From: an uncultured Bacillota bacterium
GTDB taxonomy: Bacteria; Bacillota_I; Bacilli_A; RFN20; CAG-288
Direction of reading: 5' to 3'
Assembly: GCA_949282275.1 (NCBI GenBank)
Contig: CASDOO010000020.1
Span: 1-64,000, forward strand
Length of the DNA stretch: 64,000 bases
Below, piece after piece: positions 10,690 through 35,150 of this stretch. The translations under genes and the position numbers were made by a program. The number at the start of each line of letters is the position of its first letter. The stretch's first letter is position 1. Below the pieces are notes generated by a model. That model was not told where the DNA came from. It ran no database searches and saw only the letters and a list, made by a program, of their open reading frames with translations.

Positions 10690-10702
10690 ATCGCCTCCTA
10701 TA

Positions 10703-11125: not shown

Positions 11126-11194
11126 AGTGAATCCCTATTGGAAACCTCCCGGAAAGGATTTTTGCAACCTAGCACACTTTTCTGTTCTAATAGA

Positions 11195-11220
11195 AACTTG
11201 CTCAATATTTAGAGCAAGTT
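11195..11220. repeat. Nine-base-pair inverted repeat
   Basis: AACTTGCTC (11195-11203) and GAGCAAGTT (11212-11220) flank an eight-base AT loop. There is no T run on either side, so it is not a standard terminator. It lies between two decayed ATPase genes, in the otherwise empty stretch 11126-11367. Confidence 0.5.
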
Positions 11221-11367
11221 GCCTAAAAGGATGTTTATGATTGGAAATTCGTGTTTTTTGAAATGAGTATGCGAACGATGAGAAGAAGTTTAAGGTGCCT
11301 TGCGAATCTGCGTTAGCAATCATAGATAACTAATATGAAAAAGATTATTTATTCCAAACTTGTTAGG

Positions 11368-12714: not shown

Positions 12715-13015
12715 AAGACAAGGCCTCCTATAACACTTTTTCAAGGGAGTTTCTAAATGTCTCAGATTTATTGATGATGTTACCCGCATTTTAATAAAGA
12801 CATACAAATCCGTCCCGTGTCTTCAGAACAACAGCGGCTATCCGTAATCCGTGGTTTCACTGAAGGGCAAATGGGGGCACGTCATGGACAAAAGGTTTAT
12901 GCATTTGCTTTGGGAATTGACGTCTGGTATTGGTCGACTTTCGGTTATGTAGTAAACGTATTCATAAGATACCGGAACTTAAATTCAGCAACACCTTCAA
13001 GCAACCCTGAAAATG
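12715..13015. other. Intergenic region, nothing recognised
   Basis: This holds the ribosome binding site of the broken ATPase gene. A GTG-initiated frame at 12817-13047 lacks a ribosome binding site and runs into the tRNA terminator, so I do not accept it. Confidence 0.5.
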
Positions 13016-13038
13016 AAAAAAAGCCCGTTTTCACGGGC
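13016..13038 (-). terminator. Terminator of tRNA-fMet
   Basis: On the minus strand GCCCGT / ACGGGC with a four-base loop is followed by seven Ts (13022-13016). It lies 15 bases beyond the tRNA CCA end. Confidence 0.85.
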
Positions 13039-13052
13039 GATTCTTGATACGA

Positions 13053-13127
<75 letters not shown>

Positions 13128-13153
13128 ATGTAATGCCTCGGGAAGGCTAAATA

Positions 13154-13182
13154 AGTATAGGCGTTATGCTTAGGAATTGCAA
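13154..13182 (-). promoter_or_regulatory. Promoter of tRNA-fMet
   Basis: On the minus strand TTGCAA (13182-13177), 17 bases, TATACT (13159-13154). The -10 lies 27 bases before the tRNA 5' end. Confidence 0.8.
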
Positions 13183-13244
13183 GTGCTATTTCAGTGAAGA
13201 AAAAGAAAGACAAGATTGTGGTTTCGAGAGTAGAATAGAGACCT

Positions 13245-14168
13245 ATGAAAGCACTGATTGTCATCAACGGTTATTCCGAAAACAGATCCCTCCTGAGGAA
13301 AGTCGGGAGGCTTATCGATGCCCTGGATGTCTATGCCATCGATGCCGACGTCGAAAAGGCGACCCGTTTGCTTGCCCTTTCGGAAGGCAACACTGGAAAA
13401 GTCCTTCTTGAGGGAAGGAAATACGACTTTTGCCTCTATCTAGACAAGGATGCCTACTTGGCTAAGGCTCTTTCCGAGGCGATGCCTCTTTTCAATTCCT
13501 ATCGTTCCCTCATTCTTTCCGACGACAAGATGAAGACGCTTCAGGCTCTTAAGGGGACAGGAATAAAGGCACCAAAGACCATCTCCGCTCCACTCTGCTA
13601 TGTGGAAAATCCCGATCCTAGGGAAGTCACCTTCTTTCTCCATCAGGTAGAAAACATTTTGTCTTTCCCGCTTGTCTTCAAGGCTTGCCATGGATCCCTA
13701 GGAAAACAGGTCGCCCTCATCAAGGACAGGCATGAGCTCTTTTCCTGCTATCGACAAAACAGGCATATTCCTCATCTCTATGAAGAATACCTGCCGTACC
13801 ATCCCGGGCACGATTACCGTCTCTTCGTCGTCGGTGAGAAAGTTGTCGCCGCCATGGAGCGGATCAACGAAAAGGACTTCCGTTCCAACATCGCCTTGGG
13901 CGGTAGGGGAGAGGACGTGACAAAGACGATTCCGGATGCCTATAAGGAAGTCGCCATCCGTGCTTCCAAAGAATTGGATCTTCTCTATGGCGGTATCGAC
14001 ATCGCCATCGGAAAGGATGGGGAACCGATCTTCTTGGAAGCCAACGGAAACGCCTTCTTCGATGAGATCGAGCGGGTGACGAAGGTCGATGTCGCCTCTC
14101 TTGTCGTCAACGAGGTCTTGGAAAGGCTGAAGAAGCCAAAGAAACGGACATCGAGAAAGAAGGACTGA
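13245..14168 (+). CDS. RimK-like ATP-grasp ligase
   Basis: 307 residues, the usual size of RimK-type alpha-L-amino-acid ligases, which join an acid to an amine using ATP. An N-terminal Rossmann-like part (LIVINGYSENRSLLRKVGRL, YDFCLYLDKD) precedes the ATP-grasp fold. In that fold are SDDKMKTLQALKGTGIKAPKT, PLVFKACHGSLGKQVALI (the glycine-rich loop), HDYRLFVVGEKVVAAMER, the RSNIALGG segment and the metal-binding GEPIFLEANGNAFFDEIE. The C-terminus is lysine/arginine-rich. The substrate is unknown. It probably forms an operon with the acetyltransferase 29 bases downstream. Confidence 0.8.
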   Translation: MKALIVINGYSENRSLLRKVGRLIDALDVYAIDADVEKATRLLALSEGNTGKVLLEGRKYDFCLYLDKDAYLAKALSEAMPLFNSYRSLILSDDKMKTLQALKGTGIKAPKTISAPLCYVENPDPREVTFFLHQVENILSFPLVFKACHGSLGKQVALIKDRHELFSCYRQNRHIPHLYEEYLPYHPGHDYRLFVVGEKVVAAMERINEKDFRSNIALGGRGEDVTKTIPDAYKEVAIRASKELDLLYGGIDIAIGKDGEPIFLEANGNAFFDEIERVTKVDVASLVVNEVLERLKKPKKRTSRKKD

Positions 14169-20207: not shown

Positions 20208-20879
20208 ATGAAGGGAAACGATTATCAGGCATTCGTCTTCGACATGGACGGGACGATCGTCTCTTCCATCGAGGATATCGGCGATGCGGTCAATTATTCC
20301 CTTGCCTTCCATCACCTTCCGATACACCCCATGTCGGATTTCCCGGGCTATCTCGGAAACGGCTCCGTGAAGCTTATCCAACGGGCCTTGGGAAAGGAAC
20401 ATCAGGACTGTTTCCAGAAGGTCTTCGATACCTACTATGCCTATTATCTCGAGCATTTCTGCGTCAAGACGCATCCCTATGAAGGAATCGTCGAAAGCCT
20501 AAGCTGTGCCAAGAAGGAAGGCATCCTTCTTTTCGTCTATACCAACAAGCCCGAGAAGATAGCTCTCGAGGTGGCCGACAAGTGCTTCGGGAAGGGGTTC
20601 CTCGATGGCCTTGTCGGAATACCCCTTGGCGGCAAGGTCAAGCCCGATCCGGAAGCCTTTGTCGAAAGGGTCATGAAACCCTATCATCTCGATCCAAAAC
20701 GTTGTGCCTACTTCGGGGATTCCGTCACCGACATCTTGACCGCCAGGAACCTTTCCATCGAAAAGGCCTATGCCGTTTCTTGGGGCTATGTTCCAAGAGA
20801 AAGGCTTCTTGAGTCGAAACCTTATCGCCTGCTTGAGAACCCACTTCAGATCAAGGACGTAGCCCAAGGACTTCTCTAG
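20208..20879 (+). CDS. HAD family phosphatase, phosphoglycolate phosphatase-like
   Basis: 223 residues. HAD motif I FDMDGTIV (11-18) has the nucleophile and acid Asp residues. An alpha-helical cap follows, then motif II VYTNKPE, the lysine in KVKPDPEAF and motif III FGDSVTDI. This is the Gph/PgmB-like subgroup, acting on small sugar or organic phosphates. GGAGGTAGGAG precedes the ATG. Its last four bases overlap the convergent 855-residue gene, and no terminator separates them. Confidence 0.85.
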   Translation: MKGNDYQAFVFDMDGTIVSSIEDIGDAVNYSLAFHHLPIHPMSDFPGYLGNGSVKLIQRALGKEHQDCFQKVFDTYYAYYLEHFCVKTHPYEGIVESLSCAKKEGILLFVYTNKPEKIALEVADKCFGKGFLDGLVGIPLGGKVKPDPEAFVERVMKPYHLDPKRCAYFGDSVTDILTARNLSIEKAYAVSWGYVPRERLLESKPYRLLENPLQIKDVAQGLL

Positions 20880-23443
20880 GCCCTGTTTTGGAGGTCGGAT
20901 AGATTCGGTGCCTGGCCTAGCCAGGCCTTTTTCGTTTCATCTAAGGGAGCAAAGCGATAAGGGTGGAAGCCGGTGATGTTGCTTGCCGCTCTTAGCATGG
21001 CAATCTTCATCGCCTGGTATTTTCCGATTGGACTGGTGTTGAAGTCCGGGACGGGATCCTGTTTCAGGTCGAGGGAGTAGAGATAGGGATCAAGAGTGAA
21101 TTCCGTTCCGAAGCTTTCCGCCAGTGTCTTGGAAAGGAAGACATCGGATGCATTGTATCCGCCTCCGTTGAGGAAGACGGGGAGGTTGACATAGTGGCTT
21201 CCTTCCCTTTCGACCAGGACATGGGATTGTTGTTCCGCAATCATTTTCTTCAGGGGCAGGTAGTCGTCCTCGGTGACGGAGACGGAAAAGCCATCGCCAA
21301 GTCCGCCATGGGCAAGGATGAGCGAGGCGATGTTCTCTAGAAGCAGGGACTCAAAGGAAAGGTCGTCGAATTTCTTCCAGTCATAGAAACGGCAATCCCC
21401 TTCAAGGCTAAGCAAGACGGGATAGGAGGTCCTTGCCATGTTCGAAGGCTGGACATCGCCAAAATACATGCCCGTGATGAGGGAGAGCAGCGAGGTGATA
21501 TTGGAATGGAGGAAGCTTCCCTGCGGAATCGTGTCCAGGAAGAGGGCGGAAATGCCGGAGTTGTAGAAGAAGCAGTCCGAAATCGCCGTCGTTCCTTTAT
21601 AGACCTTGTTTCCCGAGCCATCGAAGAAACCTTCCGTGTTGGTCAGGCTGTCAGCAATCGTCGGGATTGCGTTGGCATAGTCTTCCTTGGAATAAAGCCC
21701 TTCGTCCACCCCGACGAATTCGTTGGCCTGGGTGTTGTAGATGGCTCCGTAGGAAAGAAGGGAATCGGCTTTGTAATTGAAGTCCTGAAGGGATTCCAGG
21801 CTCTGTCGGGAAAGATAGTCCTTTGCCGTCGTTCTGTGCTTGACGCCGTTCCCGTCCGTATAGACGACTTCCTTGTCTTCGTTGACCTCGTTGAATTCGT
21901 TCGCCCCCAGCTTGACGAGGAATTCCATCGCATTCTGGAGAAGGCAGTTTTCGACTGTCAGGCCTTGGCTGGAATAGCTTCGCAGGACGTTTCTTCCTTT
22001 CTCGATGACGGAATTCTGGACACGGACATTGTCGCCGTTGACTTCGAGGACGGTTCCCGTATAGGCGAGGTTCGTGAGATTCCCGGCGATATTGTCGGCG
22101 TTTGCGAAATGGACATCGTCCAAGGTGATATCGTCTCCATCCACGTAGAAGCCGACATTGTCCTGGCCATAGAGGGCGAAGATGGGAAGGCCACCATTGG
22201 TAATGCTTGTTCCGGGCGTGTTGGGGTCGCCAAGACTGACGTAGAGAAGCGGGCCCCGATAGAGGTCGCTTTCACCGAGGATTGCATTGGTCGTCTGGTT
22301 TCCGAGACTGTCGGTGATGGTCTGCTCCTGGGACGGATAGCAAAGGTCGTGAAGGTTTATCTCGAAGCCGTTTCCATGGAAGTCCTTCTGGATGTGGACG
22401 GCGGCATAGCGGAGCAAGGAGACGGGTGTCTCCGGTTTCTTCTCGTTCCAGAAGTCGAGATAGGTATGGTCATAGGTTGTCGTGAAGCGATAGAGGTCGG
22501 AAGGTTCAAACGGACGTGGAGAAGTTCCTGACATATGGCCAAATAAGGAAGCACCTTTGTCGGAAAGGACAAGGTTGCCGTCATTGTCGATAATGGCGGA
22601 CCCATCGGAAGTCGTTTCATATGTTCTTTCGAAATTGAGAAGATTCTTTCTTAGGACAATAGGGATTCCCGTTGCGGAGTCATTCGTTGCTGCCATCAAG
22701 TCGTCATAATCATAGACATTCATGGCTTCCTCGATGGCAAAGGCAATCGTCCCGTTTCCTTTGGAAGAGACGGGATTGATGAAGGTGACGGAAGCTTCCC
22801 CTTCCTCAAGGAGTGTGATTTCATGGTTGGGAAGGTCGACTTCCACGTTTGGACTGCTTTCGATTTTGATCTCGTTTTCCTGGAAACTTGAGGTTCCGAA
22901 AATCTCGATGTCAAACGAGAGGGTCGCATCGGGAGTCTTTCTATCATAGGCATCGACGCTATCGTAGAGACCGACATGGTTGATTCCGGAGATGGATTGG
23001 CTCGAGAAGGGGATCGTCGGGGTGATGATGATGGCTCCGGAATCGCCGACGATACGGGCAAGGAAATAGTCGGAGACGTTTCCTTTTTGGTTTCGGCATT
23101 CCACACGGCACGTTCCTTCATCGTGGAAGACGAGATAGTTATCCTCGCCTTCTTTCTCGATTGTCGCAATGTCGCTTTCCTCTTTCGTCACGGGATCCAA
23201 GCTCGACCAGACGAGGTCATTTCCATCGCTTAGAGGATAGCGTTCATCATAGACGGGATTGGCCTTCAGAAGTGTCCTTCTCTGGGAAAGGGAGAAGGGA
23301 TTTTCTTCGCCGCTTTGGTACTCCCAGCTTATTCCCGTGATGTCCGTCTCAACCGACCGGATGATGACTGTCGAGGTGACGAAGGCAAAGATGGCGATGA
23401 GGAAGGGAAGGAAAAGGAGGAAGATGATGGCTTTCTTTCTCAT
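20876..23443 (-). CDS. Large surface protein, predicted right-handed beta-helix, last gene of the SipW operon
   Basis: 855 residues. An N-terminal hydrophobic segment (about 4-30) acts as signal or anchor. Residues about 30-240 look like all-beta, Ig-like repeats (ATLSFDIEIF, NHEITLLEEGEASVTF). From about 300 to 560 the spacing of short strands and Asn/Val turns (VGFYVDGDDITLDDVHF, VLEVNGDNVRVQNSVIEKG, GLTVENCLLQN) resembles pectate-lyase-like beta-helix coils. No sortase motif or C-terminal anchor is seen. It overlaps the ABC permease gene by four bases with AGGAGG before its ATG, so it is translationally coupled to the exporter. Function unknown; it may be cargo or a surface scaffold of the system. 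Confidence 0.75.
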   Translation of the reverse strand: MRKKAIIFLLFLPFLIAIFAFVTSTVIIRSVETDITGISWEYQSGEENPFSLSQRRTLLKANPVYDERYPLSDGNDLVWSSLDPVTKEESDIATIEKEGEDNYLVFHDEGTCRVECRNQKGNVSDYFLARIVGDSGAIIITPTIPFSSQSISGINHVGLYDSVDAYDRKTPDATLSFDIEIFGTSSFQENEIKIESSPNVEVDLPNHEITLLEEGEASVTFINPVSSKGNGTIAFAIEEAMNVYDYDDLMAATNDSATGIPIVLRKNLLNFERTYETTSDGSAIIDNDGNLVLSDKGASLFGHMSGTSPRPFEPSDLYRFTTTYDHTYLDFWNEKKPETPVSLLRYAAVHIQKDFHGNGFEINLHDLCYPSQEQTITDSLGNQTTNAILGESDLYRGPLLYVSLGDPNTPGTSITNGGLPIFALYGQDNVGFYVDGDDITLDDVHFANADNIAGNLTNLAYTGTVLEVNGDNVRVQNSVIEKGRNVLRSYSSQGLTVENCLLQNAMEFLVKLGANEFNEVNEDKEVVYTDGNGVKHRTTAKDYLSRQSLESLQDFNYKADSLLSYGAIYNTQANEFVGVDEGLYSKEDYANAIPTIADSLTNTEGFFDGSGNKVYKGTTAISDCFFYNSGISALFLDTIPQGSFLHSNITSLLSLITGMYFGDVQPSNMARTSYPVLLSLEGDCRFYDWKKFDDLSFESLLLENIASLILAHGGLGDGFSVSVTEDDYLPLKKMIAEQQSHVLVEREGSHYVNLPVFLNGGGYNASDVFLSKTLAESFGTEFTLDPYLYSLDLKQDPVPDFNTSPIGKYQAMKIAMLRAASNITGFHPYRFAPLDETKKAWLGQAPNLSDLQNRA

Positions 23444-25050
23444 GATTGGGCCTCCTTTTCATATCGCAGGAATAGTTTCTCCGTCTTCAGGAAAAAGAGC
23501 AGGAAAAGAACTCCGGAAAGAATTAGGAGAAGAATCAGCGCACAGAGATAGAACGTCAGGACGCTTTGACTGTTGAAGGGCTTCAGGAGGGAAAGAAGGA
23601 AGGAAAAGGCAAGGAAAATAACGGGAAGGAGGAAATCGACGACGAGCGAAAGGAAATCGCCTTTCTTCATCCTCAAGTCCAAATGGATCGAGGAGAAGGA
23701 GAGGGCAAGAAGGAAGACAAGGCCGATGGGAAGGAGGAAGGCAAAGGAAAGGGCGGAAATCTCGTTCGTCGAGACCAACACGATGATGGCGACAAGATAG
23801 GAAACAGCGGAGAAGAGGAAGGGGACGAAAAGCTTGACCAGGAGCTGCTTTCTCGGGGATACGGGCAAGGTCTTCATCGTAACGATGTTGTTTCCTTCTT
23901 TCTTCAGGGAAAGGGAGGAGGTGGCATTGATGACGGCAAGGAAGAGAAGGATCAGAAGGGAATCCATAAACAAAAGGAAGTTCGGAAAGAGCGTCTGGAT
24001 GAAGCTGAGGTTTCCCGTATGGAAGATGACGTTGATTGCCGAGACGACCAAATAAATCAGGAATGGCTCCACGGCAACAAGGGAAATGAAGGAAAAGAAG
24101 CCATCGCTTCGGCTTAGGACAAGGGAGAGCTCCTTCTTGACCAAGGCCATGAAAGGCGTGTCCAATGTGACAGGAAGGACCAGGAAATCCTTTCTCTCCT
24201 CCCCCTTTACGCCTTGACGATAGTAACGTTCCAAATAGGGATAGAAGATAGGTAAGGAAAGAAGGGGAAAGCCAATCGTCATCAAAAGGAACCAAAGGAA
24301 GGCGATGGCGCTTTCCGTGAGCAAAGTCTGGGAAAGAAAGGATGTCGGGACAAGGTATCGGGCGATATGGGACATGGATTCCATCCTTTCCGTGGTGAAG
24401 AGCATGTCCAACGAGGAATTCTGAATCAGATCGACGAAGAGACCGAGGAACAAGGAATAAAGATAGGCAAGAAGGAAGGAGATGGCGATGGTAAAGAGGA
24501 AGGCAAGGATGGGATAGCGCTTGAGGAAAAGGTAAAGGACGCGGTAAGGAAGGAGGAAAAGAAGGGCAATGCCAGTCAGAAGCACGGCGAACAAAGGAAG
24601 GAAAAGCAGGAGAAGGAAATAGAAAATACCACCGCTTCCGGATTCGGCACCATAGACGATGGATAACGGAAAATAGGTGATGAAAAGGAACAAGGCATTT
24701 CGAAGAAGAGAGTAAAGCGTTTTTGAAATAAGAATATCCTTCCTCGATACGGGCCTCGATCCCAGGATTATCCTTTCCTTCTCGTTTTGGAAAAATGTCT
24801 TGTGCATCGTCGGGACAGCAAAGACGATGCCGAGAACAAAGACGAAGAAGAGGACGAAATCGTAGAAGGAGCGGTTGAATCCGGAATAGATGGCAAGCTG
24901 TCCATAGAGCCTGTCGTAGACGAAACAGAGGATGGTCACGAGAAGTCCGGCAAAAAGGACGGTCGATGCTATCGACAGGATTCTTTTCGTGCCGCGTTTA
25001 TGGAAGACGGAAGAGGAGAACAGTTCCCGCTTAAATAACGTCCGGATCAT
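23440..25050 (-). CDS. ABC-2 type exporter permease, double length
   Basis: 536 residues with about twelve hydrophobic helices in two sets, separated by a hydrophilic stretch (about 275-310). The first set follows the ABC-2 pattern of a cytoplasmic N-terminus, then NEKERIILGSRPVSRKDILISK, a loop typical of ABC-2 permeases; an equivalent KEGNNIVTMKTLPVSPRKQLLVK lies in the second half. It thus looks like two fused permease units. It overlaps the ATPase gene upstream by 20 bases and the beta-helix gene by four. It probably exports or helps assemble a product of this operon. Confidence 0.8.
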   Translation of the reverse strand: MIRTLFKRELFSSSVFHKRGTKRILSIASTVLFAGLLVTILCFVYDRLYGQLAIYSGFNRSFYDFVLFFVFVLGIVFAVPTMHKTFFQNEKERIILGSRPVSRKDILISKTLYSLLRNALFLFITYFPLSIVYGAESGSGGIFYFLLLLFLPLFAVLLTGIALLFLLPYRVLYLFLKRYPILAFLFTIAISFLLAYLYSLFLGLFVDLIQNSSLDMLFTTERMESMSHIARYLVPTSFLSQTLLTESAIAFLWFLLMTIGFPLLSLPIFYPYLERYYRQGVKGEERKDFLVLPVTLDTPFMALVKKELSLVLSRSDGFFSFISLVAVEPFLIYLVVSAINVIFHTGNLSFIQTLFPNFLLFMDSLLILLFLAVINATSSLSLKKEGNNIVTMKTLPVSPRKQLLVKLFVPFLFSAVSYLVAIIVLVSTNEISALSFAFLLPIGLVFLLALSFSSIHLDLRMKKGDFLSLVVDFLLPVIFLAFSFLLSLLKPFNSQSVLTFYLCALILLLILSGVLFLLFFLKTEKLFLRYEKEAQS

Positions 25051-25798
25051 TTTCCTCTTCCTTTTCCTTGGCGTTTTCCAGGAAGTACTGGTTGAGATGG
25101 TAGCGTTCCCTCGGGTTTTCTTTCAAAGAGAAGATCTTTTGGATCGTTCCCTTGTTGATGATGGCAACCCTGTCGCACAGACGGGCGATGAGGTCGATGT
25201 TGTGGCTTGCCACGAAGACGGTCTTGTCGTGATCGGCAAATTCCCGCATCATCCGGCACAGCTCGTTGGACGTGAAGGCATCCAGTCCAACGGTTGGTTC
25301 ATCAAGAATCCAGATCTTCGGGTTGTGAATCAGAGAGGCAATCAAGCAGAGCTTTTGCTTCATTCCGTGGGAGTATTCCTTGATTGGTCTATAGAGATCG
25401 TTCATGGAAAGATCGAGACGTTTTGCCAAATATTCGAAATTCGTCTTGAAACGATTCTTGTTTATCCTGTAGATGGAGGCGATGAATTCCACGTAGCCAA
25501 GCCCACTCATCTCCTCATAGCTTGTCGGTTCGCTCGTGACATAGCCAAAGGTTTCCTTGGCCTTGTTGGCTTCCTTGCGGATATCAAATCCGCCAATCTG
25601 GATCGTTCCGCTTTGGAAATCCTTGATTCCGATGGAGCATTCGATGGTGGTTGACTTTCCGACGCCGTTCTTTCCGATGAATCCGAAAAGCTCGCCTTCA
25701 TAGACATCAAGGTCTATACCCTTAAGGACTTCATGTGTTCCGTAGCTCTTGTGGAGGGAGTGGATGGCGATTGCGATATGTTTTTCTGCTTCAGGCAT
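25031..25798 (-). CDS. ABC-2 type exporter ATPase
   Basis: 255 residues. Walker A GKNGVGKST (42-50), Q-loop VTSEPTSYEEM, signature SHGMKQKL, Walker B IWILDEPTVGLD and H-loop FVASHN are intact; this is the CcmA/NatA-like export class. AAGGAG precedes the ATG, which overlaps the 950-residue protein gene by eight bases. The acidic tail (KEKEEENDPD) is unusual but short. It powers the permease encoded just downstream. Confidence 0.9.
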   Translation of the reverse strand: MPEAEKHIAIAIHSLHKSYGTHEVLKGIDLDVYEGELFGFIGKNGVGKSTTIECSIGIKDFQSGTIQIGGFDIRKEANKAKETFGYVTSEPTSYEEMSGLGYVEFIASIYRINKNRFKTNFEYLAKRLDLSMNDLYRPIKEYSHGMKQKLCLIASLIHNPKIWILDEPTVGLDAFTSNELCRMMREFADHDKTVFVASHNIDLIARLCDRVAIINKGTIQKIFSLKENPRERYHLNQYFLENAKEKEEENDPDVI

Positions 25799-28643
25799 TT
25801 TCAGCAGCTCCTTTGAGAGTCCAAACGTTGTTTGAAAAGCTTAACGAGTATAGACGTGTTCGAGAATCACCAGTATCTCCACCTGCGTAACGGTATAAAT
25901 ATGTTGTGGCAGTGTTGCCGTTTATTGAATCTTGGACATAAACAAAACTTCCTCTGTAAAAAACATTAATCGGCCGATTGAAAGTTAACCCGTCACCATA
26001 GTCTGTGCCGTTGATAGAAATATAGTTTCCGTTGTTGGTTACTTGGAAAAAGGAACCAGAAAGATCGTCTGGGGAATCGGCGGATGTTTGAAGATTCACT
26101 GTACCATAGAAATTGGCTTTATTTGTTTTGTCCCATGAGTGTGACCAAGAATAATCAGGAATAAATGCATAGGTTGATGTTCCATTGTCAATCAAACCAG
26201 TGATTGAGTCATAGTGATATTCCGGTTTGTTAGACAAAGAAATTCCAGCGGATGATTCTGGGGTAACGCTAGATGAGGAAGAACCGCCCACAACGGAATA
26301 GTCGACTGTCGTTACATCAACCAACACTTCGCGTTCTGTGTTCATTAGCGGTGGTGTATAGAACCCTCGAACATAGAAATAGTTTTGCCCTATGGATGTC
26401 TTTCCAGGAGCCGTGTTTGGTCCAAGCATAAAATAATTACCAAATAAACTAACCTTTCGATGAGAAGAAATAGAATTCCAGTCATTTATTGATCTTCTGA
26501 AGGCGGACATGTTTTCAATATCCATCATGCCCCCAAAACGAAAAGAATGGTACATAGGTATGAGATTATTAGAAGAGTCCCGATTTTCTCTAAATATAAT
26601 TTTTCCATCGAAATCGGCATAGGCAGGAGTTGCTGCAAGAGATTTCCAAAGAGGCGCATAGGAAGAATTCGAGAGGAGATTCGTGTTTCTTGCATCATAG
26701 AGAGGATAATTTGTTGTTCCAGGTTCGGAATAATAAAAGGTGTCCAGAAAAGTCAATCCACCAACGCTTTGGTATGTCTGATAATCAATAAATGAGTCGT
26801 TGTTTGTCATTAAATCTGCCGAAGAATAGGAAAGAATCAAATTGCTATTTCTATCAAAATCCAAATAGGAACCGGCCATAAACACGATTTCTTGGTTGAG
26901 ATAAATCGTTGAATTTAAGATATGGGCTTTGAAATAAAAGGGCAGGAAAAACTGATATTTCCGTGAATCCATCGTAATATGATTTCCAGCGACATTAAAA
27001 TCCAAGAGCCAGTTGGCAAAAGTCAATTCAGCATTTTCAATATAGTAATGGATTTCTTGATTGAACAAGTCAGATGCATATTTTGTCAATGACTCGTTAT
27101 AGCGGACATCTCGTATTATTTTCCCGTTTGATAGTTGAAGAAGGTTATTTTCTTCATTGGCGGCTCCTATAAATGAAACCAATCCGGTGACACCTAAACA
27201 GACATTTCCATTATTCCCAAGGCCTATATTGGTGATTCCGGCAAGATCAACCTTATATTCTCCGCTAAAATATGAGCCGGCATAAAAAACAATTTTGCAG
27301 TCCAAATAGGGGCATCTGTAGAAATTAAAAGGAGAATTGTTGTTGAAAAAAGATACTGGAGCCGACATTGGGAGAAAAACATCCTCTATCACAAAAGGGG
27401 ATTGAAGGCTGGAGCCAGGAAGCATTATAAGAGTTCCAAAAGAACTTGAATCGTTGAATCTTGAACTATCGGTAATAGACCCATAGGAGATGATTTTGCT
27501 CCCATTGGGCATGATAAGATCATATCCGTTTAAGTCAATTTCACAATAATTGCCAATGATAAAACCTTGATATCCAGATTGGGAAAAATCTAAGTTGTTG
27601 CCAAAATAGCCTGTGATTCCTCCCAACGTTATGTTAGCGCTGAAAATGATATCGTTTTGTAATGAAAAACGCGTGACACAATAGTTTCGAGAATAAGAGT
27701 TAGCAGACGAATTATATGTTTTGGTTCCACTATTTGAGGATGCGTTTTGATATTTATACGGGGTTCTTTTTGAAGAATCACCGCCTTCGGAGGAGTTGGC
27801 TTCGGGATTTGAAAGTCCTATCGTTGAATCTCCGCCATAGGAAATGAATTTGTCACTGCTATCATGATAGCCATATCCGTTGGTTTGATTTTTAAGCCAC
27901 GAGTCATCTTTATGTGATAATCTGTAATTAACAGAATTCCCCCGTGCCATATCAGCATCCCTTGTTTGTTTGACATGAGATGTCAAGAAATATTGCCCAT
28001 TTGTAAAGCTTGGTGTAATGCCGGCATTTTTTTCCGAAGCCGTAATTCCCATCACCCTTGTCTCAACGCTTTGATTGTATCCTTCTGATGTTAGATGAAT
28101 GATATTGTCCGGCGTTCCGATGAATTGTTCGCCGTAATCAAGTGTTTCGTCATAGGTGCTTTGTAGTGTTGTCGTCTGGTACGTGGATTCCGTTCTTGAG
28201 GCAAAGCTGGTATTGTTGGCACCCAAACAGCTGGCGCTTACCGTATTCGTATAATTCGCTGCCGTGCCTGTGAGAAGCATATCTTCCGTCACATCAATAT
28301 GCTTGCTTAGGGACTGCCCGTTATAGGTGCCGCCGCTTGCCTTCCAGGAAAGATATTGATTGCCTGAGACATACATTGTGTTGGGGTCGTTGTTCGTGGC
28401 ATCGGCAAGATCGGCCATGCTCAAAATATAGCCATCCTCAAAATAGCGTGTCGTTGTTTCTTCCGTGGCGGTGTTTTGGAAGGTAACCTTGTGGTAGTCC
28501 TTATTGGTATCCTTGTTTTCGTCGACATTGCTCACACCGGTTTCGGGACCATCTTCCTGAATCTGATACCCGGCATAGCCATTTGTGATAGGCATGATGA
28601 GGAAGGTCAGGAAGAGAAATGTTTTCAAGAGTTTCTGTTTCAT
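25791..28643 (-). CDS. Large secreted protein of unknown function (950 residues)
   Basis: A cleavable-looking signal peptide (LLKTFLFLTFLIMPITNGYAG) is followed by about 925 residues rich in Asn, Ser, Thr, Tyr and Gly, without membrane helices, cysteine pattern or sortase motif. The middle part has many short strands ending in Asn or Asp (IIGNYCEIDLNGYDLIM, ITLGGITGYFGNN, GNHITMDSRKY), which suggests a beta-helix or adhesin-like solenoid. The gene is clearly AT-richer than its neighbours, a hint of separate origin. AAAGGAG precedes its ATG. It sits between the SipW-substrate-like gene and the ABC exporter, so it may be exported and displayed by this system. Confidence 0.7.
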   Translation of the reverse strand: MKQKLLKTFLFLTFLIMPITNGYAGYQIQEDGPETGVSNVDENKDTNKDYHKVTFQNTATEETTTRYFEDGYILSMADLADATNNDPNTMYVSGNQYLSWKASGGTYNGQSLSKHIDVTEDMLLTGTAANYTNTVSASCLGANNTSFASRTESTYQTTTLQSTYDETLDYGEQFIGTPDNIIHLTSEGYNQSVETRVMGITASEKNAGITPSFTNGQYFLTSHVKQTRDADMARGNSVNYRLSHKDDSWLKNQTNGYGYHDSSDKFISYGGDSTIGLSNPEANSSEGGDSSKRTPYKYQNASSNSGTKTYNSSANSYSRNYCVTRFSLQNDIIFSANITLGGITGYFGNNLDFSQSGYQGFIIGNYCEIDLNGYDLIMPNGSKIISYGSITDSSRFNDSSSFGTLIMLPGSSLQSPFVIEDVFLPMSAPVSFFNNNSPFNFYRCPYLDCKIVFYAGSYFSGEYKVDLAGITNIGLGNNGNVCLGVTGLVSFIGAANEENNLLQLSNGKIIRDVRYNESLTKYASDLFNQEIHYYIENAELTFANWLLDFNVAGNHITMDSRKYQFFLPFYFKAHILNSTIYLNQEIVFMAGSYLDFDRNSNLILSYSSADLMTNNDSFIDYQTYQSVGGLTFLDTFYYSEPGTTNYPLYDARNTNLLSNSSYAPLWKSLAATPAYADFDGKIIFRENRDSSNNLIPMYHSFRFGGMMDIENMSAFRRSINDWNSISSHRKVSLFGNYFMLGPNTAPGKTSIGQNYFYVRGFYTPPLMNTEREVLVDVTTVDYSVVGGSSSSSVTPESSAGISLSNKPEYHYDSITGLIDNGTSTYAFIPDYSWSHSWDKTNKANFYGTVNLQTSADSPDDLSGSFFQVTNNGNYISINGTDYGDGLTFNRPINVFYRGSFVYVQDSINGNTATTYLYRYAGGDTGDSRTRLYSLSFSNNVWTLKGAAENA

Positions 28644-28648
28644 GGTCT

Positions 28649-29440
28649 TTAGACTCCTTTCGAGGTGGTGATGGATAGAGTCACGCCAGAGAAGTCCGCC
28701 AAGGTCAGGTTTTCCATTTTGGATAGGTCAAAATCCAATACCAAGGAATACTTGTTCATGGTGGCGATATAAGTCGTCAGGACATCGGCGAAGGAATAGA
28801 GATAGTAGTCATCGGGAATGGTGGCACCGCCCAAGGTATGATCGGTGATGAGTACGGAAAGGGTGATTGTCTTGTTTGCGGTGTCTCCCTTGAGATAGGT
28901 TCTTTCGGTCCCGCTTTCGGAAATGCGATTGTTTTCCACATGCCAATTGGATAAAGGAAGGGTGAGATCCTCATTCGGATTTGAAATGGGCCGATATTGG
29001 AAATAGGCATCGGCATTGTCGACAAGGGCGTTGATGTCGACAGTGGCGCTTTCGGGGAAGGAAAAGACGAAATCGATCGTCCCGGTGCATCCAGCATTTC
29101 CGCCAATTGAGTTGTTTATCTGTGCCAAAACGACAGATGCCTTTTCTGTAGTCGTGAAGGAAATGGTGAAATTGTCTTTATCAGTACTTCCTATGCCATC
29201 GGTATCAATCGTGTTTTGCAAATCCATCAATTCGTTTCCGTCGGAATAATAGTGGATTCCTTCGCAGGATATGGTCGTGAAAAGATAGTTGAGATAGCTT
29301 GGGACAGTTGTCACTTGTATGGCTCCAGGGTTTGTGCTTGCGCCGGAGATGTTGCCTGTCACGGAAAAAGCGGCAAAGGAAACGGACATGGTCATGAGGA
29401 TGCCGGTAGCCAGAATCAAAGACAATGTCCTTTTTCTCAT
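28649..29440 (-). CDS. Exported protein with SipW-type signal peptide (TasA/camelysin-like)
   Basis: 263 residues. The N-terminus RKRTLSLILATGILMTMSVSF followed by AAFSVTGNISG resembles the signal region of SipW-processed proteins, with a hydrophobic stretch then an aromatic residue and a beta-strand. The rest is all-beta (DNFTISFTTTEKASVVLAQI, GTIDFVFSFPESATVDI, KTITLSVLITD) with no membrane segment, consistent with a TasA-like jelly-roll fibre subunit. GAGGAG precedes the ATG, and it starts two bases after the lipoprotein gene ends. I am confident about export, less about the TasA relation, which rests on the signal, fold pattern and the sipW gene in the same operon. Confidence 0.6.
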   Translation of the reverse strand: MRKRTLSLILATGILMTMSVSFAAFSVTGNISGASTNPGAIQVTTVPSYLNYLFTTISCEGIHYYSDGNELMDLQNTIDTDGIGSTDKDNFTISFTTTEKASVVLAQINNSIGGNAGCTGTIDFVFSFPESATVDINALVDNADAYFQYRPISNPNEDLTLPLSNWHVENNRISESGTERTYLKGDTANKTITLSVLITDHTLGGATIPDDYYLYSFADVLTTYIATMNKYSLVLDFDLSKMENLTLADFSGVTLSITTSKGV

Positions 29441-29442
29441 GT

Positions 29443-30579
29443 TTAGTTCTCCTCAAAGCATGCGAATAGCCTTGTGTATTGTTTTGTGACAGGAGTCAGG
29501 TCCGTGAATTTCCCCGCCCTAGGATCGTTAGGCCCTTGGGCGGAGGTGTACCATCCGATGAAGGTGGCCCCGTCCTTGGAAGCGGTCGGTATTTGGCTGA
29601 TGTCGAGGCTTTCTCCCTTCAGACAGGTGACCCGGGAAAGATAGGAGCCATCCAGGATGCCGCCATTCGTCGTGGCATCGAACTCGACCGTGCAGGGAAT
29701 CGTCTCATTCTTCAGATTTGCGATGAGATCCCAAGTGAAACCATTGAAAAGATAGATGGCAAAGTTGGTGAGGTCATAATAGAAGTCGCCCTGCTTTGCC
29801 TGCATGGAAATCTCGAATGTGGGTTCGCCGTTCCCGCTGAACCACTTCGTCGATTCGGGCATCGGGAATTCCAGGACGTCGATGTTTTCCTGATTGGGGT
29901 CATCGGTATATGTGACATAGATGTAATAGGTTCCGTTGGCGCTTTGAGTCGTGATGCTGGAAATCCCTCTTCCGTCCTCGCCGTCGTTCCCCTTGATATA
30001 CGGTATTGTGATTGTTGTCGGGTTCTTGCCTTCGTCGGTGTAGGAAATGGTGATCGTCGTGTTTCCTTCCTCGTCTCTCGTGCTTTCGATGTTCTCGATT
30101 CCGATGCCATCCTTCCCGTTCTGGAGAACGAACTGTTTTTCCGTGCCGTCCGTCAGGCGAATGGTGACCGTTGTCGTTTCGGTGGTGCTATCGAAGTCGG
30201 TAAGGATTTCCTCTATGCTGACGGCATCTTCAAGTTCGATACGCTCCTGTTCCATCGTCTCGTCCGTGAAGGTGATGACGAGATAGGTCTTCCCGGTTTC
30301 AGGGTCGGTAACCTTCTCGATCTTTTCGATTCCGTTGCCAATTGGTCCCTGAGGTCCCATTTCTCCATTCTCCGGCGCAGGTATGGTGAATTCGACAGGT
30401 TGGTAATAGTCATCGGTGAAGGTGATGGTAATGGTGGTGTTCCCTTCCTCGTCCATCTTCGTCGCGATGTTCTCGATCTGCATTCCGCCATCGTCAAAGA
30501 AGGACCCGCAGGAGGTCAACGGCAACAGGAAGAGGAAGGCAAGGATGAAGAGCCTAAGACGTCTAAAGATTCTTTTCAT
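29443..30579 (-). CDS. Lipoprotein with collagen-like patches and repeated beta-units
   Basis: 378 residues. The signal ends in the lipobox LTSC, with Cys about residue 24, so it is lipid-anchored. Repeats of a beta-unit with NTTITITFTDDYYQPVEFTI-like strands alternate with glycine-rich GEMGPQGPIG and GNDGEDGRG patches, as in phage and Gram-positive collagen-like surface proteins. The C-terminal part (FIGWYTSAQG, KQYTRLFACFEEN) matches the InlB B-repeat/Listeria-Bacteroides repeat pattern. AGGAGG lies inside the end of the DUF2357-like gene, with a 17-base overlap. It may anchor the surface structure to the membrane. Confidence 0.75.
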   Translation of the reverse strand: MKRIFRRLRLFILAFLFLLPLTSCGSFFDDGGMQIENIATKMDEEGNTTITITFTDDYYQPVEFTIPAPENGEMGPQGPIGNGIEKIEKVTDPETGKTYLVITFTDETMEQERIELEDAVSIEEILTDFDSTTETTTVTIRLTDGTEKQFVLQNGKDGIGIENIESTRDEEGNTTITISYTDEGKNPTTITIPYIKGNDGEDGRGISSITTQSANGTYYIYVTYTDDPNQENIDVLEFPMPESTKWFSGNGEPTFEISMQAKQGDFYYDLTNFAIYLFNGFTWDLIANLKNETIPCTVEFDATTNGGILDGSYLSRVTCLKGESLDISQIPTASKDGATFIGWYTSAQGPNDPRAGKFTDLTPVTKQYTRLFACFEEN

Positions 30580-31681
30580 GTTGGCCTCCTATCTTCAGGA
30601 ATGGAACGTTCGTGACGAAGTCAATGCCATCCTCTTCTTCCTGGATGTTGGCATGGCAGAGAGGACAATGGCCGTCAATCGCCGGGGAGTGGCAGATGGG
30701 ACAGATGCCATCCTTTTCTCTCTTGGTCAGTGCCGTCCAGGAGACGATGAAGGAAAGAAGATCGTTGACTTCGAGGAAGGAGAACGTCCTTTCGTCTTTT
30801 CCGTTTCGGATCGTCAACGCCGGGAAGAAGAAACTGAAGCCGACTTCCAAGGCATAGAGAGTCTTCTTGTCGCCATGACGGATCTCGATTGTCATATCCT
30901 CGTCTGTCCGGAGCCTGTACTCCATTCTTCCGTCTGTTCCGACAAGGAATCCGTCTTTCTCCACGGCATGGAGTCTTTCGTGGAAGAGGGCAAGGAGGTT
31001 CTTCCGGAATTCTTTTCTCATGAGTCTTCTTTCGTCTTGTCTTCTGAGGAAGAAGTCGAGGCAGGTTCGGTAATCCTTCTGCTCCATGAGAAGATTTGTC
31101 GGTTCGACGCTTTCGAAGGGACGGAGAGGGATTCCCATTCCATCGGCGGCCTTCTTGAGGAATGCTGCCTTTCGATAGAGGGCAAAAAGGTTGTTCGTGA
31201 TATCTTCCGTTCCCCTTTTTTTGGAATCCTCATCCTTGAGAAAGTCGTCAAGGAGACGGATCGTTCCATAGGGGCCATAGGAGATACCGTTCTTAAGGAA
31301 GGGGAGGAAGGAATCGCCCCTGCGGATGAAATCCAATGCCTTTTCGGAGTCCTTTGCTATTAGGCTGAGGACGAAGAGGGCAAAGCGATTCTCGTAGGTA
31401 TCAAAACTCTCCTCCGGCATTTCGTCATAGGCTTTTTCAAGGGACAGCCTTCCACTGGAATCCCGTCGGAAGAGCCGAGGATCCCGATAAGTCTTTTCCA
31501 TGAGGGAGCGGTCGTAGTGTCGGATCTGCTCGATTCGGGAAAGCTGTTCCGAAGCGAAAAGGCGAGATTTCTGGAGACGAAGGATATTCTCGATTGCCTC
31601 CAGGACGAGCCGATGATTGGCAAGCCTGTCCTTTATGACAAGGGGGCTATCCCTGCCATCGGACTTTCTTTCCGCGATCAT
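30563..31681 (-). CDS. DUF2357/McrC-like protein with C-terminal zinc ribbon
   Basis: 372 residues. The segment SFDTYENRFALFVLSLI is the T-x-ENRF motif typical of DUF2357 and McrC-associated proteins, which normally partner McrB-like ATPases. I cannot find a clear PD-(D/E)XK nuclease site: the C-terminal region TIEIRHGDKKTLYALEVGFSF has no convincing catalytic triad. It ends with CPIC-x8-CPLC, a zinc ribbon near residue 345. The gene overlaps the AAA+ gene by four bases (ATGA), so the two proteins are probably made together and interact. The family assignment is moderate, from motif memory only. Confidence 0.55.
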   Translation of the reverse strand: MIAERKSDGRDSPLVIKDRLANHRLVLEAIENILRLQKSRLFASEQLSRIEQIRHYDRSLMEKTYRDPRLFRRDSSGRLSLEKAYDEMPEESFDTYENRFALFVLSLIAKDSEKALDFIRRGDSFLPFLKNGISYGPYGTIRLLDDFLKDEDSKKRGTEDITNNLFALYRKAAFLKKAADGMGIPLRPFESVEPTNLLMEQKDYRTCLDFFLRRQDERRLMRKEFRKNLLALFHERLHAVEKDGFLVGTDGRMEYRLRTDEDMTIEIRHGDKKTLYALEVGFSFFFPALTIRNGKDERTFSFLEVNDLLSFIVSWTALTKREKDGICPICHSPAIDGHCPLCHANIQEEEDGIDFVTNVPFLKIGGQHEKNL

Positions 31682-33564
31682 AAACCGATCCTCTGGATTG
31701 TCCTTTCGATCTGCTTTCTGGAAAGAGAGAAAGATTCCTTTCCGTAGAGGGCATCGATCTTTTCGAGAAGACGCCTCAAGGAGAGGCCAAGGGAGGAATC
31801 CATCCTTCCTTGGAGTTTTCTTAGGACCTTTGTGGCAAAGAGGTAGTCGAGGAGTTCCTCCTTCTTTCTTCCCATTGCCTGATAGACGGGAACCATCTTG
31901 TCGATTTGACGAAGGAGACGGTTTCCGATGGCAATGGCGAATTCCGTTTCCATGAAGGCGAGCAAATCGAGGAAAGCTTTTCTATCGTTCTCATCGAAGC
32001 GAAGGTCCATGTCTTCTTCCGCCTTGGCAAAGAGGTCGCTTAGGCCATCATAGGAAAGCAGGATGGGATTGACATCCTTTTCGACCACGATTTCCCGTTG
32101 ATAGTTCTCGAAATCGATGACGATGGCACGGTCGATGACCTTGTCCGTGACCGTATAGGTCGAATCGTCCTTGTTGCACGTTCCGACGAAGTAGGTGTTG
32201 GGAAGGAGGTCGATGCATCCATTGCGAAGATGCCTTGGGCAATCGTAGTCATCCGGAAGCGAGAGAAGGGGAATGCGTCTTTCGTCCTCCGGGAATTCCA
32301 GGACGGAAAGGAAGTCGGCGAAGTAGTACTCGACACGGGAGATGTTCATCTCGTCGAGGACCATCAGGTTGAGACGGCTAGAAGAATAGGACGCCTGGTA
32401 GAGCCTTCTTAGGAAGGGTGTCTCCATGTATTTCCTCGTGAATTCGTTGTAATAGCCAAGAAGGTCGGATTTCTCTTTGTAGGTCACTTGGATTGATTCG
32501 AAGAAAGCTTCCTCGCCGATGAACTTGGCAAAATATCTTGGGAGGGAGGACTTTCCGGTTCCGGAGATGCCTTCCAGGATGATGAGATGGGTGGCATTCA
32601 TCGCCGAGACAAAGAGGGCAAGCTCCTTTTTCTCATAGAAGAGATGTTCTTTCTTCGCAAGATAGGCCTGCAAGTCATCGATGAGAGAGGAAAGGGTAAT
32701 GTTGGGACTATCCATGGCGACGAAGTTGGCCGATACGTTTGCCTCGTCAATCTGTGAGAGGGCGGGGAAAAGCTTTTCCTTTTCGGGAAGGACGACCTCG
32801 TCATGATTTTCTTGAGTTGGAACAACCTTTAATTCAATTGGTGAATCGCTTGCGATAGTTCCTTCTGTAGGGTCGTTTTTCCCGGATGAATTGGCTTGAA
32901 CTGTCGTTTTTTTGGAATCAACTTCCCCGAAGGAGGAGACGACATCCTTTCCATCATCCTGAAGTTCACCGGGTTCTTCCTTTTCCTCTTTCTCGATTTC
33001 CTGCCTTTCCTTCTCTTCTTTCCTGATTTGCTCCTGGCTGTAGCTTGTGAGATTGACCTTGGCAAATCCGATGCAATAGACGCAGATACCGATGAGCGCG
33101 AAGACGAAAAGGCCAAGGATGACGAAGAAGAGGGCGGATAGGACAATGACCTGACTGACGAAGGTCATCGTCGTCGGATAGCTATCCATGCCGACGGCAA
33201 GATGGAAGAGGCTTCCAAGGCCGAGGGAGAGGGCGACTGCGACAAGGAAGGCGATTCCATAATAAAGCCATGCCTTTCTCGAATAGACCTTCTCGCCGTG
33301 ACGCCTCATCCAATACATGATGTAGCAACAGGCCATGTCGAAGAGGACGATGTAGACAAGGATAAAGATGAGCATCAGCCACATGATCGGCGTTGCCGCA
33401 ATTGCCGGGAATCCGAAGAGGGCTCCCAGTGCGGCAATGGGATTGGTCCTGGCAAAGATCGTATAGCTTGCATCCAGCCCGAAGGCCGTGACCAAGGCGA
33501 TGACGGCATAGAATACCGCTAGGCATATGCTCAGCTTGTTGGCCCTTGTCAGCTTGTTCTCCAT
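31678..33564 (-). CDS. Membrane-anchored McrB-like AAA+ ATPase
   Basis: About 628 residues. Four membrane helices fill residues 12-170, followed by a charged linker (180-270). The AAA_5/McrB-type ATPase follows: Walker A GISGTGKSS (334-342), the LGYYNEFTRKY segment, Walker B LMVLDEMNIS (402-411), sensor 1 FVGTCNKDDS (461-470) and VIDRAIVIDF with the arginine finger. McrB uses DExN and the same IDRA region. The ATG at 33564 has AAAGG five bases upstream; a GTG two codons earlier overlaps the signal-peptidase stop and is possible. Anchoring at the membrane beside a signal peptidase suggests a protein-remodelling role instead of DNA restriction. Confidence 0.8.
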   Translation of the reverse strand: MENKLTRANKLSICLAVFYAVIALVTAFGLDASYTIFARTNPIAALGALFGFPAIAATPIMWLMLIFILVYIVLFDMACCYIMYWMRRHGEKVYSRKAWLYYGIAFLVAVALSLGLGSLFHLAVGMDSYPTTMTFVSQVIVLSALFFVILGLFVFALIGICVYCIGFAKVNLTSYSQEQIRKEEKERQEIEKEEKEEPGELQDDGKDVVSSFGEVDSKKTTVQANSSGKNDPTEGTIASDSPIELKVVPTQENHDEVVLPEKEKLFPALSQIDEANVSANFVAMDSPNITLSSLIDDLQAYLAKKEHLFYEKKELALFVSAMNATHLIILEGISGTGKSSLPRYFAKFIGEEAFFESIQVTYKEKSDLLGYYNEFTRKYMETPFLRRLYQASYSSSRLNLMVLDEMNISRVEYYFADFLSVLEFPEDERRIPLLSLPDDYDCPRHLRNGCIDLLPNTYFVGTCNKDDSTYTVTDKVIDRAIVIDFENYQREIVVEKDVNPILLSYDGLSDLFAKAEEDMDLRFDENDRKAFLDLLAFMETEFAIAIGNRLLRQIDKMVPVYQAMGRKKEELLDYLFATKVLRKLQGRMDSSLGLSLRRLLEKIDALYGKESFSLSRKQIERTIQRIGL

Positions 33565-33566
33565 AG

Positions 33567-34469
33567 TCACCTTTCACTTTCCGGAAGAGCTATCCTTTCC
33601 TTGTCGATGAGAAGATAGCTTTCCCCTTCATATTCCTTTTCTTCGTTGTAATCGTATTCGCCTTCCTTTACGACCAATGTCCCGTCTTCCGAAACGATCT
33701 CATATTCCTTTGCTTTCCCTACTTTTTCGAAAAGCATTGCCTTCCGTTCCTCTTCCTTCTTCTGCTGGATACGCATGCACTGATCATAGAGGATAAGGAC
33801 ATAGAGGATTCCGCAGAAAGCAAGGATGCCATAGTTGGATTGGACGAAGAGGACGAGGATTCCTAGCTTCGGTATTCGGAAGTGCGTGTAGACACCGACC
33901 AGATTGTCCATCGTCACCATGGTCGGATCGCTCGTATCGTTGGCATCGCCTCTCGTGACAAGGAAATTCTCCTTCTTTTCGATGACCCGGTGGACGATTG
34001 GTCTTCCTTCCTCATCAATATAGCAAACGATGTCGTAAAGCTGGATTTCATCCAAGGAGTCGACACGTCTAACGGCAATCATGTCGTTGACCTGAATCTG
34101 GTCATTAAGATTATTTTTGAAGAGATAGTCGTTTCTTTCGTTCTTCTCCGACATGGAGCCTGTCACGATGACCATCGTCTCATATGGAAGATGGAAGGCA
34201 TTGATGACGCGGGTCGTCAGAGAAAGAAGGAAGAACAAAGATAAGACGATTACAAGAACATCCAGAAGGATGCCGGCAATCTTGCGTATCCTCCTGGATG
34301 TCCGATTCTTCTCTTTTTCTTCTTCGAGATGCACTCCGTAGACAAGATAGGCATCTCTTTTCCCTTTCTTCACTTCCTCGATACTCTTTTTGACATAGTA
34401 GATAAGCAGGCAGGTCAAGCCGGCAAGAAAGAACAGCGTTATGGCGAGGACGATCCAAAAGAGGTTCAT
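33567..34469 (-). CDS. SipW-like (ER-type) signal peptidase I
   Basis: 300 residues. Two membrane helices (1-25 and about 65-88) precede the catalytic MVIVTGSMSEK, with Ser105 as nucleophile. The general base is a histidine in PIVHRV (His160), as in archaeal, ER and SipW enzymes, and not lysine. The GDANDTSD box (174-181) follows. A third membrane stretch (about 203-230) and a charged cytoplasmic tail of 70 residues end the protein. SipW enzymes cleave the special signal peptides of fibre subunits such as TasA. The TasA-like gene ends 14 bases upstream. No good ribosome binding site precedes the ATG, so translation may be coupled. Confidence 0.85.
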   Translation of the reverse strand: MNLFWIVLAITLFFLAGLTCLLIYYVKKSIEEVKKGKRDAYLVYGVHLEEEKEKNRTSRRIRKIAGILLDVLVIVLSLFFLLSLTTRVINAFHLPYETMVIVTGSMSEKNERNDYLFKNNLNDQIQVNDMIAVRRVDSLDEIQLYDIVCYIDEEGRPIVHRVIEKKENFLVTRGDANDTSDPTMVTMDNLVGVYTHFRIPKLGILVLFVQSNYGILAFCGILYVLILYDQCMRIQQKKEEERKAMLFEKVGKAKEYEIVSEDGTLVVKEGEYDYNEEKEYEGESYLLIDKERIALPESER

Positions 34470-34483
34470 ATCAATGGGAGGGG

Positions 34484-35092
34484 TTAAGCGGTGGCGTCAG
34501 TGACCGTAACGACAAATTTAATCGTTGTTGCCTGAAGAGCTGTGTTGAAGGCATTCATAGCAGTGCTAATTGTTTCCTTGTCTTCTTCGGCAGAATAGAA
34601 GGCAACAGGATCGGTGTTACCGAATTTTTCACCCCAACCAAAAGTAAAGGTGTAGTTGAGAGATTCGGCAAAGGTCTTACTCAGCGAGGTTGGATCGGGA
34701 AGAGTGATGTAGCCTGAGGTTACTGCATTTCCTTCTCCATCAGCAGAGACCGTGACGGTAATGTTCTTTCCCGATAAATCTTCGCCTCCAGTGGCAGTGA
34801 CATCAATTTGAAGATCTAAGTTGGCCTCCGGGATTCCGTCATATTGGAGAACCGCATTGTCCGTATCGGCTGTGGTAGGATAGAAGGCTAATTTCTCGTT
34901 TTCATGAATGGTGGCAGTGATGTCATAGCTTTCGTCCACAATGATGACTGGTTCAAGCTGAGTGTCTCCAGGGTTGGTGATGTTGGTATCGGCGAGAACG
35001 TATCCGGCAAACGCAGCCGTGCCGACTCCGGCAAGCCCGAACAAGAGACCGAGGGTGAGGAAGAGTTTCTTCCGATTCTTCTTCTCCTTCAT
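34484..35092 (-). CDS. TasA-like exported protein, first gene of the operon
   Basis: 202 residues. The basic N-terminus and hydrophobic segment (KKLFLTLGLLFGLAGVG) ends in TAAFAGYVLADTNITNPG, similar to SipW-dependent signals that carry an A-x-F near the cut. The remainder is a beta-rich acidic domain (YDITATIHENEKLAFYP, LDLQIDVTATGGED, KNITVTVSADGEG, TIKFVVTVTDATA) without further membrane segments, consistent with a TasA/camelysin-type subunit. AAAGGAGG precedes the ATG, and a good promoter is 30 bases upstream. Being promoter-proximal, it would be the most strongly made product, as expected for a structural subunit. Confidence 0.65.
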   Translation of the reverse strand: MKEKKNRKKLFLTLGLLFGLAGVGTAAFAGYVLADTNITNPGDTQLEPVIIVDESYDITATIHENEKLAFYPTTADTDNAVLQYDGIPEANLDLQIDVTATGGEDLSGKNITVTVSADGEGNAVTSGYITLPDPTSLSKTFAESLNYTFTFGWGEKFGNTDPVAFYSAEEDKETISTAMNAFNTALQATTIKFVVTVTDATA

Positions 35093-35121
35093 GGTTTTTC
35101 AACCTCCTTTTTGGTCGCTTC

Positions 35122-35150
35122 ATTCTAATCTATCAAAATAGGCGATTCAA
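35122..35150 (-). promoter_or_regulatory. Promoter of the ten-gene SipW operon
   Basis: On the minus strand TTGAAT (35150-35145), 17 bases, TAGAAT (35127-35122), 30 bases before the first start codon. No comparable promoter is obvious inside the operon. Confidence 0.75.

Follow-up and report, generated by a model that had tools for sequence, protein, structure and literature searches.

What is a membrane-embedded relative of the restriction GTPase McrB doing among secreted proteins, a dedicated signal peptidase and an ATP-binding cassette (ABC) transporter? The question is raised by a block of ten genes, here called A to J, in contig CASDOO010000020.1 (assembly GCA_949282275.1) of an uncultured Bacillota bacterium, of which the stretch from position 1 to 64,000 was analysed (the window). 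The block probably encodes a nucleoside triphosphate (NTP)-driven machine for the assembly of a surface filament or coat in a sortase-free, apparently peptidoglycan-deficient bacterium, and would constitute a new variant of CoCoPALM, a class of McrB-associated systems described below. We infer this role in assembly from the composition, order and co-inheritance of the genes, the type of signal that their products carry, the homology of C, D and H, and the predicted fold of J.

The block consists of ten open reading frames (ORFs) on the minus strand, with an exact span of 20876-35092 (Table 1). Consecutive genes are tightly packed, with gaps of 14 nucleotides between A and B, 2 between E and F and 5 between F and G, and overlaps of 4 at B-C, 4 at C-D, 17 at D-E, 8 at G-H, 20 at H-I and 4 at I-J. 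An earlier reading of the same DNA (the original prediction) had described these genes as a single operon and a candidate surface-assembly system; the number of genes, their strand, coordinates, overlaps and gaps all match the ORF coordinates.

Table 1. Genes of the block and its probable promoter, with positions in the window.
Feature	Position	Strand	Assignment	Basis
A	34484..35092	-	Candidate secreted or membrane-anchored beta-sandwich subunit, 202 residues, SipW-type signal	Family motif, model, signature
B	33567..34469	-	SipW/endoplasmic reticulum (ER)-archaeal-type signal peptidase, 300 residues	TIGR02228, SipW NF046067, invariant residues
C	31678..33570	-	McrB-like NxD GTPase homologue, 630 residues, GTG start, about 5 N-terminal transmembrane (TM) segments	Profile alignment, motif
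D	30563..31681	-	DUF2357 (McrC N-terminal-type) protein, C-terminal zinc ribbon, 4 invariant Cys	Pfam, alignment
E	29443..30579	-	Lipoprotein, beta repeats of about 45 residues joined by short Gly-rich patches	Sequence, conserved position
F	28649..29440	-	Second SipW-signal secreted protein, 263 residues	Signature, locus comparison
G	25791..28643	-	Large SipW-signal secreted protein, 950 residues; putative tip/adhesin or coat protein	Signature, homologues
H	25031..25798	-	ABC ATPase	ABC_tran 5.2e-24
I	23440..25050	-	ABC-2-type permease with 12 TM-like segments	TM-like segments, Pfam in homologues
J	20876..23443	-	N-terminally membrane-anchored protein, tandem immunoglobulin (Ig) domains and beta-helix region	Model, folds, Pfam
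Promoter and ribosome-binding site	35103..35150	-	Probable promoter and ribosome-binding site of the block	Consensus match only

Homologues of these genes, far from lying scattered in relatives, keep their order and adjacency. A search with D in about 100 relatives recovered homologues whose flanks held other genes of the block, and a profile search with C in 84,980 species genomes gave 156 relatives, for which 80 loci were returned with at most 20 kb of context; after removal of duplicates, 82 distinct loci were compared. All six core genes (B, C, D, H, I and J) are present in 69/82 loci, many of the others being truncated by contig ends, and adjacency is kept for C-D in 82/82, B-C in 75/80, H-I in 72/74 and I-J in 67/70 cases, with median gaps of -4 to +4 nucleotides. 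Two layouts are found. The alpha layout, A-B-C-D-E-F-G-H-I-J, occurs in the window and in nine further complete loci, and the beta layout reads A(1-7)-B-C-D-H-I-J-E, with an F-like and a G-like gene after it in many cases. Genome G010 harbors both types, and the genome of the window itself (G000) carries a second copy, of the beta type A-A-B-C-D-H-I-J-E-E-F-like, on another contig (C27:24001-44000, L140). Since the 80 loci had been picked by means of C, J was searched independently in the same 392 genomes: homologues of C from the higher-scoring of two tiers (tier 1, defined below) are present in 23 and strong homologues of J in 25, both occurring together in 23/23 and J without C in two only (Fisher 3e-35, uncorrected for relatedness). 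The pairwise distances of the six core proteins, whose mean identities are 23-55%, are correlated as well (r 0.63-0.90, permutation p 0.001). Fixed order, co-occurrence of C and J and correlated divergence together indicate that the genes are inherited as a unit, in agreement with the proposal that they form one system. Among the carriers that have names in NCBI are Candidatus Scatoplasma, Alloenteromonas, Onthovivens and a genome under the label Anaeroplasma, the operon of Anaeroplasma bactoclasticum, as labelled, being L060; some loci are labelled Clostridia, which may reflect another class or mislabelled metagenome-assembled genomes.

The same comparison bears on a different explanation, according to which two independent systems adjoin one another, one a surface unit of the SipW/McrBC type (A-B-C-D), the other an ABC exporter unit (H-I-J) accompanied by E and G. 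Full-length H-I-J trios lacking A-E were indeed found in three loci (L161-L163), following a G-like protein of about 1000 residues or a protein of more than 2000, and four diverged copies were recognized (L164-L167). In L165-L167 the trio precedes a lipoprotein-like protein of at least 1880-3226 residues, with a divergent ABC transporter pair adjoining, and in L164 (G083:C2, ~493-13892) it directly adjoins genes for PilB, PilC, N-methylated pseudopilins and a prepilin peptidase. This last arrangement, seen in one genome, is a likeness to filaments of the type IV pilus and type II secretion type, from which the block itself differs in having no pilin N-methylation motif, prepilin peptidase or PilB/PilC. 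E and G, moreover, shift between the layouts, E having a conserved position after D in alpha and after J in beta. Independence of the two units nevertheless seems unlikely, as every genome with a tier-1 C among the 392 also has J, the H-I-J trio in nearly all loci comes straight after D or after the E-F-G insert, frequently with gene overlaps, and the core distances are correlated between B/C/D and H/I/J. Its association with several systems of surface proteins marks the trio most plausibly as a surface-assembly or export module.

The trio resembles NosDFY, which comprises an ABC ATPase, an ABC-2 permease and a beta-helix protein, by analogy only. The model of J (predicted local distance difference test, pLDDT, 89.5; predicted template modelling score, pTM, 0.88) shows an N-terminal anchor and two Ig-like domains, with S-layer Ig domains among the folds closest to them, followed by a strand-rich region; Pfam gives weak matches to the beta-helix families, namely Beta_helix alone, in 7/47 homologues, which together with the confident model upholds the beta-helix label given to J from the start. 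An identity of J as NosD was considered and rejected: the fold matches listed are mostly of Ig type with no NosD among them, the Pfam matches listed include no NosD family, and the tandem Ig domains and N-terminal anchor set J apart.

The energy source of the proposed machine would be C. An acidic linker connects its N-terminal TM-like segments to an AAA domain, and the profile of C aligned with E. coli McrB (K-12 record) in hhalign with a probability of 90% (E 1.5e-6), while comparison with the PDB gave a plausible but weak match to McrB (6hz4, E 0.17). The sensor motif is N-K-D-D in the window protein, and GTxNKDDS and close variants occur across tier-1 C proteins; the NxD form is that of one McrB clade (PMC11090510). 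D matches DUF2357 (PF09823) at 5.5e-10, as do 28/41 of its homologues; no alignment of D with E. coli McrC was obtained by profile, so that DUF2357 is its one link to McrC. In 41 D proteins, the residues that are invariant or nearly so include no conserved acidic or lysine columns of a PD-(D/E)xK nuclease. Judged by sequence, C is thus homologous to McrB-type NxD GTPases, and D would be its McrC-type partner without a conserved nuclease. The label DUF2357-like thus holds for D, and the "membrane AAA+ ATPase" first proposed for C is indeed a membrane AAA protein, better named a McrB-type GTPase homologue in view of the NxD motif.

An AAA GTPase domain and a DUF2357 partner are what the block shares with McrBC type IV restriction, from which it differs in that C is embedded in the membrane, has the NxD rather than the NxxD motif and shows no methyl-DNA-binding domain, and in that D has no conserved nuclease residues. 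It has been considered that C and D form a module against phages, similar to type IV restriction, which accompanies the surface operon and defends against, or is triggered by, phages that bind the surface. Besides the homology to McrB and McrC, such a role would fit the NxD-clade relatives that are predicted defence systems (PMC11090510). C, however, spans the membrane several times, and D combines the absence of conserved nuclease residues with a zinc-ribbon C-terminus. Furthermore, the C-D pair is always found inside the surface operon, where its order is constant and its divergence keeps step with that of the other core genes, and no nuclease, methylase or HEPN gene was seen within the block, all of which makes a defence module improbable.

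For the pair as part of a surface-assembly machine, the closest precedent is CoCoPALM, reported in one paragraph of PMC11090510 as a McrB GTPase of the NxD form, to which an FtsB-like domain (TM plus coiled coil) is fused, together with a DUF2357 McrC, coiled coils being present on both the McrB and the McrC homologue, and signal peptidases, the latter thought to be pilus-assembly factors; a fuller account was promised elsewhere (PMC11090510), and no later paper on CoCoPALM was found in the literature searched. The claim of the original prediction that no known system joins these components therefore has to be given up, as a McrB-McrC-signal peptidase class had already been named, and C and D are homologous to it. 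The block shares with this class the shortened NxD motif of C, the DUF2357 partner D and the adjoining SipW/archaeal-type peptidase B, and differs from it in the roughly five TM segments of C, in its own sequence tier and in the addition of H-I-J, the lipoprotein E and the A family. In a scan of the phylum, homologues of C fell into two tiers with AAA scores of 471-578 bits (tier 1) and 330-380 bits (tier 2), with nothing between. Tier-2 loci (L143-L151) have SipW-like peptidases, DUF2357 proteins and "FAWF" signal-peptide proteins nearby, and H-I-J, E and A were not detected in the tier-2 loci shown; they are apparent CoCoPALM loci, assigned by the description in that paper. In a tree of the AAA domain, tier 1 lies on one side of a branch with a support of 76/100. 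As for an FtsB-like fusion in C, about five TM-like segments and the acidic linker are seen, with no FtsB/DivIC Pfam match in C or its tier-2 relatives. The separate tier, the extra modules and the tree branch point to a distinct variant of the CoCoPALM class, in which the ABC-beta-helix module, the lipoprotein, the subunit family and the extra membrane helices are new.

Other arrangements of this clade were also encountered. In L152-L155, a gene that is DUF2357-like or uncharacterised stands between two McrB-like GTPases, and genes for very large membrane or secreted proteins come next, which represents another layout of the clade. In L156 (G086:C17, 106-4451), an A-A-B-C-D operon is directly preceded by the genes for an NxD-clade McrB homologue of about 920 residues and for a DUF2357-like protein.

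The substrates of the machine would be supplied through B, which scores over the cut-off of TIGR02228 and matches SipW NF046067 at 1.2e-16, under the equivalog cut-off. Residues S105, H160, D175 and D181, the Ser-His-Asp set of the ER/archaeal type, are invariant in 79 homologues, and the identification of B as a SipW-type peptidase is confirmed. The A slot holds 1-7 paralogues in most relatives. Proteins of this family have a hydrophobic segment at the N-terminus, a small-small-aromatic motif and, C-terminally, the motif WG..F...NP; 165/181 A proteins having the hydrophobic segment carry the SipW-type signature. In several other loci the F slot is occupied by a protein matched by the A profile, and G has homologues in 60/93 loci (E<=1e-3). 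The signature, an aromatic P2' after small P1/P1', is present in 190/216 A, F and G proteins as compared with 191/880 other N-terminally hydrophobic ORFs of the same loci, a control that is not clean because many E lipoproteins fit the pattern through their lipobox. In TasA, an aromatic P2' residue is described as characteristic of processing by SipW (PMC10269814). A role as SipW-type substrates is therefore supported for A, F and G, with cleavage by B predicted.

A TasA identity of A or F was rejected, no match to PF12389 (Peptidase_M73), to an NCBIfam family, to a PDB sequence or to a PDB fold having been found. Of the two candidate SipW substrates in the original prediction, one of them called TasA-like, the first attribute is thus supported and the second is not. 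That the block is just a biofilm-fibre operon of the TasA/TapA/SipW type among bystander genes is accordingly very improbable. The block shares with the TapA-SipW-TasA system of Bacillus subtilis a dedicated SipW-type peptidase beside short secreted beta-sandwich proteins and the aromatic P2' (PMC10269814), but has no TasA or TapA match in sequence or fold and adds a McrBC-type motor, an ABC module, a lipoprotein and a large secreted protein, six further genes being conserved in place.

The envelope of the carriers provides a setting for such a system. Neither a sortase nor a penicillin-binding transpeptidase nor MurG was found in the genome of the window, which makes the bacterium probably peptidoglycan-deficient. 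Among the 392 genomes, the transpeptidase domain is absent in 24/25 carriers of C or J (Fisher p 0.004 in comparison with the remaining genomes, uncorrected for relatedness), and the carriers appear to be gut bacteria without a cell wall. Peptidoglycan loss and missing sortases have been predicted in families of the RFN20 order of Bacilli (PMC10868615).

Taken as a surface-assembly machine, the block may work as follows. A, F and G would be exported and then cut by B, A and F serving as repeating small subunits and G as the large outer component of a filament or coat. C would form a ring of McrB-type NTPase subunits embedded in the membrane and would be stimulated by the nuclease-less D, and the two may power a membrane step, for instance by passing subunits on or pulling them as assembly proceeds. 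H-I-J would act as a separable ABC module whose ATPase and permease work on or through J to export, fold or seat the polymer, and the lipoprotein E may help to keep the structure at the membrane. The originally proposed surface role is supported in part, by the SipW-type signals, the lipoprotein, the membrane-anchored Ig/beta-helix protein J and the occurrence of H-I-J beside pilus genes elsewhere.

Several points weigh against this reading. The case for filaments and polymerisation is indirect, and the role of C and D could be a different one, for example in defence or quality control. The beta-sandwich that AlphaFold predicts for A (pLDDT 81, pTM 0.68; residues ~26-55 after the membrane segment of low confidence) has no PDB match at E<=0.001, the best having E 0.01, with no TasA among the 50 matches listed, so that assembly of A by donor strands is hypothetical. 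The existence of H-I-J without A-E suggests that it may be an accessory module. The ABC-2 exporter is well founded as regards its ATPase H, while the assignment of the permease I is weak, with ABC2_membrane found in 2/19 homologues and no PDB relatives found. Finally, the genome of the window is 84% complete, so the absences noted in it are provisional; the other sampled carriers are at least 94% complete.

In the sortase-less, peptidoglycan-deficient relatives it has been inferred that fewer surface proteins are probably expressed (PMC10868615); the operon suggests that some of them possess a dedicated surface-assembly route instead. It is tentatively conceivable that the block represents a hitherto undescribed nucleotide-powered machine for surface assembly, in which an AAA motor of the restriction type took on the building and membrane anchoring of protein filaments or a coat in bacteria devoid of peptidoglycan and sortases through loss, with a modular ABC/beta-helix device common to type IV pili and giant adhesins. 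The McrB-type motor in this way gains a concrete non-defence context with a complete and testable parts list, and what had been a lead of one paragraph becomes a defined class of operon comprising subunits, peptidase, motor, ABC module and anchor.

Regarding transcription, a sigma-70-like site, TTGAAT-17-TAGAAT, was found by consensus match at 35150-35122, and a strong ribosome-binding site, AAAGGAGG, at 35110-35103, both upstream of the ATG of A. Minus-strand terminator-like matches within the block are all intragenic, with none between genes; the promoter and terminator scans modestly exceed the shuffled expectation (24 vs 15 and 27 vs 18, respectively) and are no proof as to transcription. 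Repeats in the region resemble low-complexity codon runs, with the exception of the beta repeats of E. Downstream, a phosphatase-like gene on the plus strand (20208-20879) is convergent to the block, and a strong hairpin-plus-T terminator-like site that would serve this gene lies at 20910-20926, inside the 3' coding end of J.

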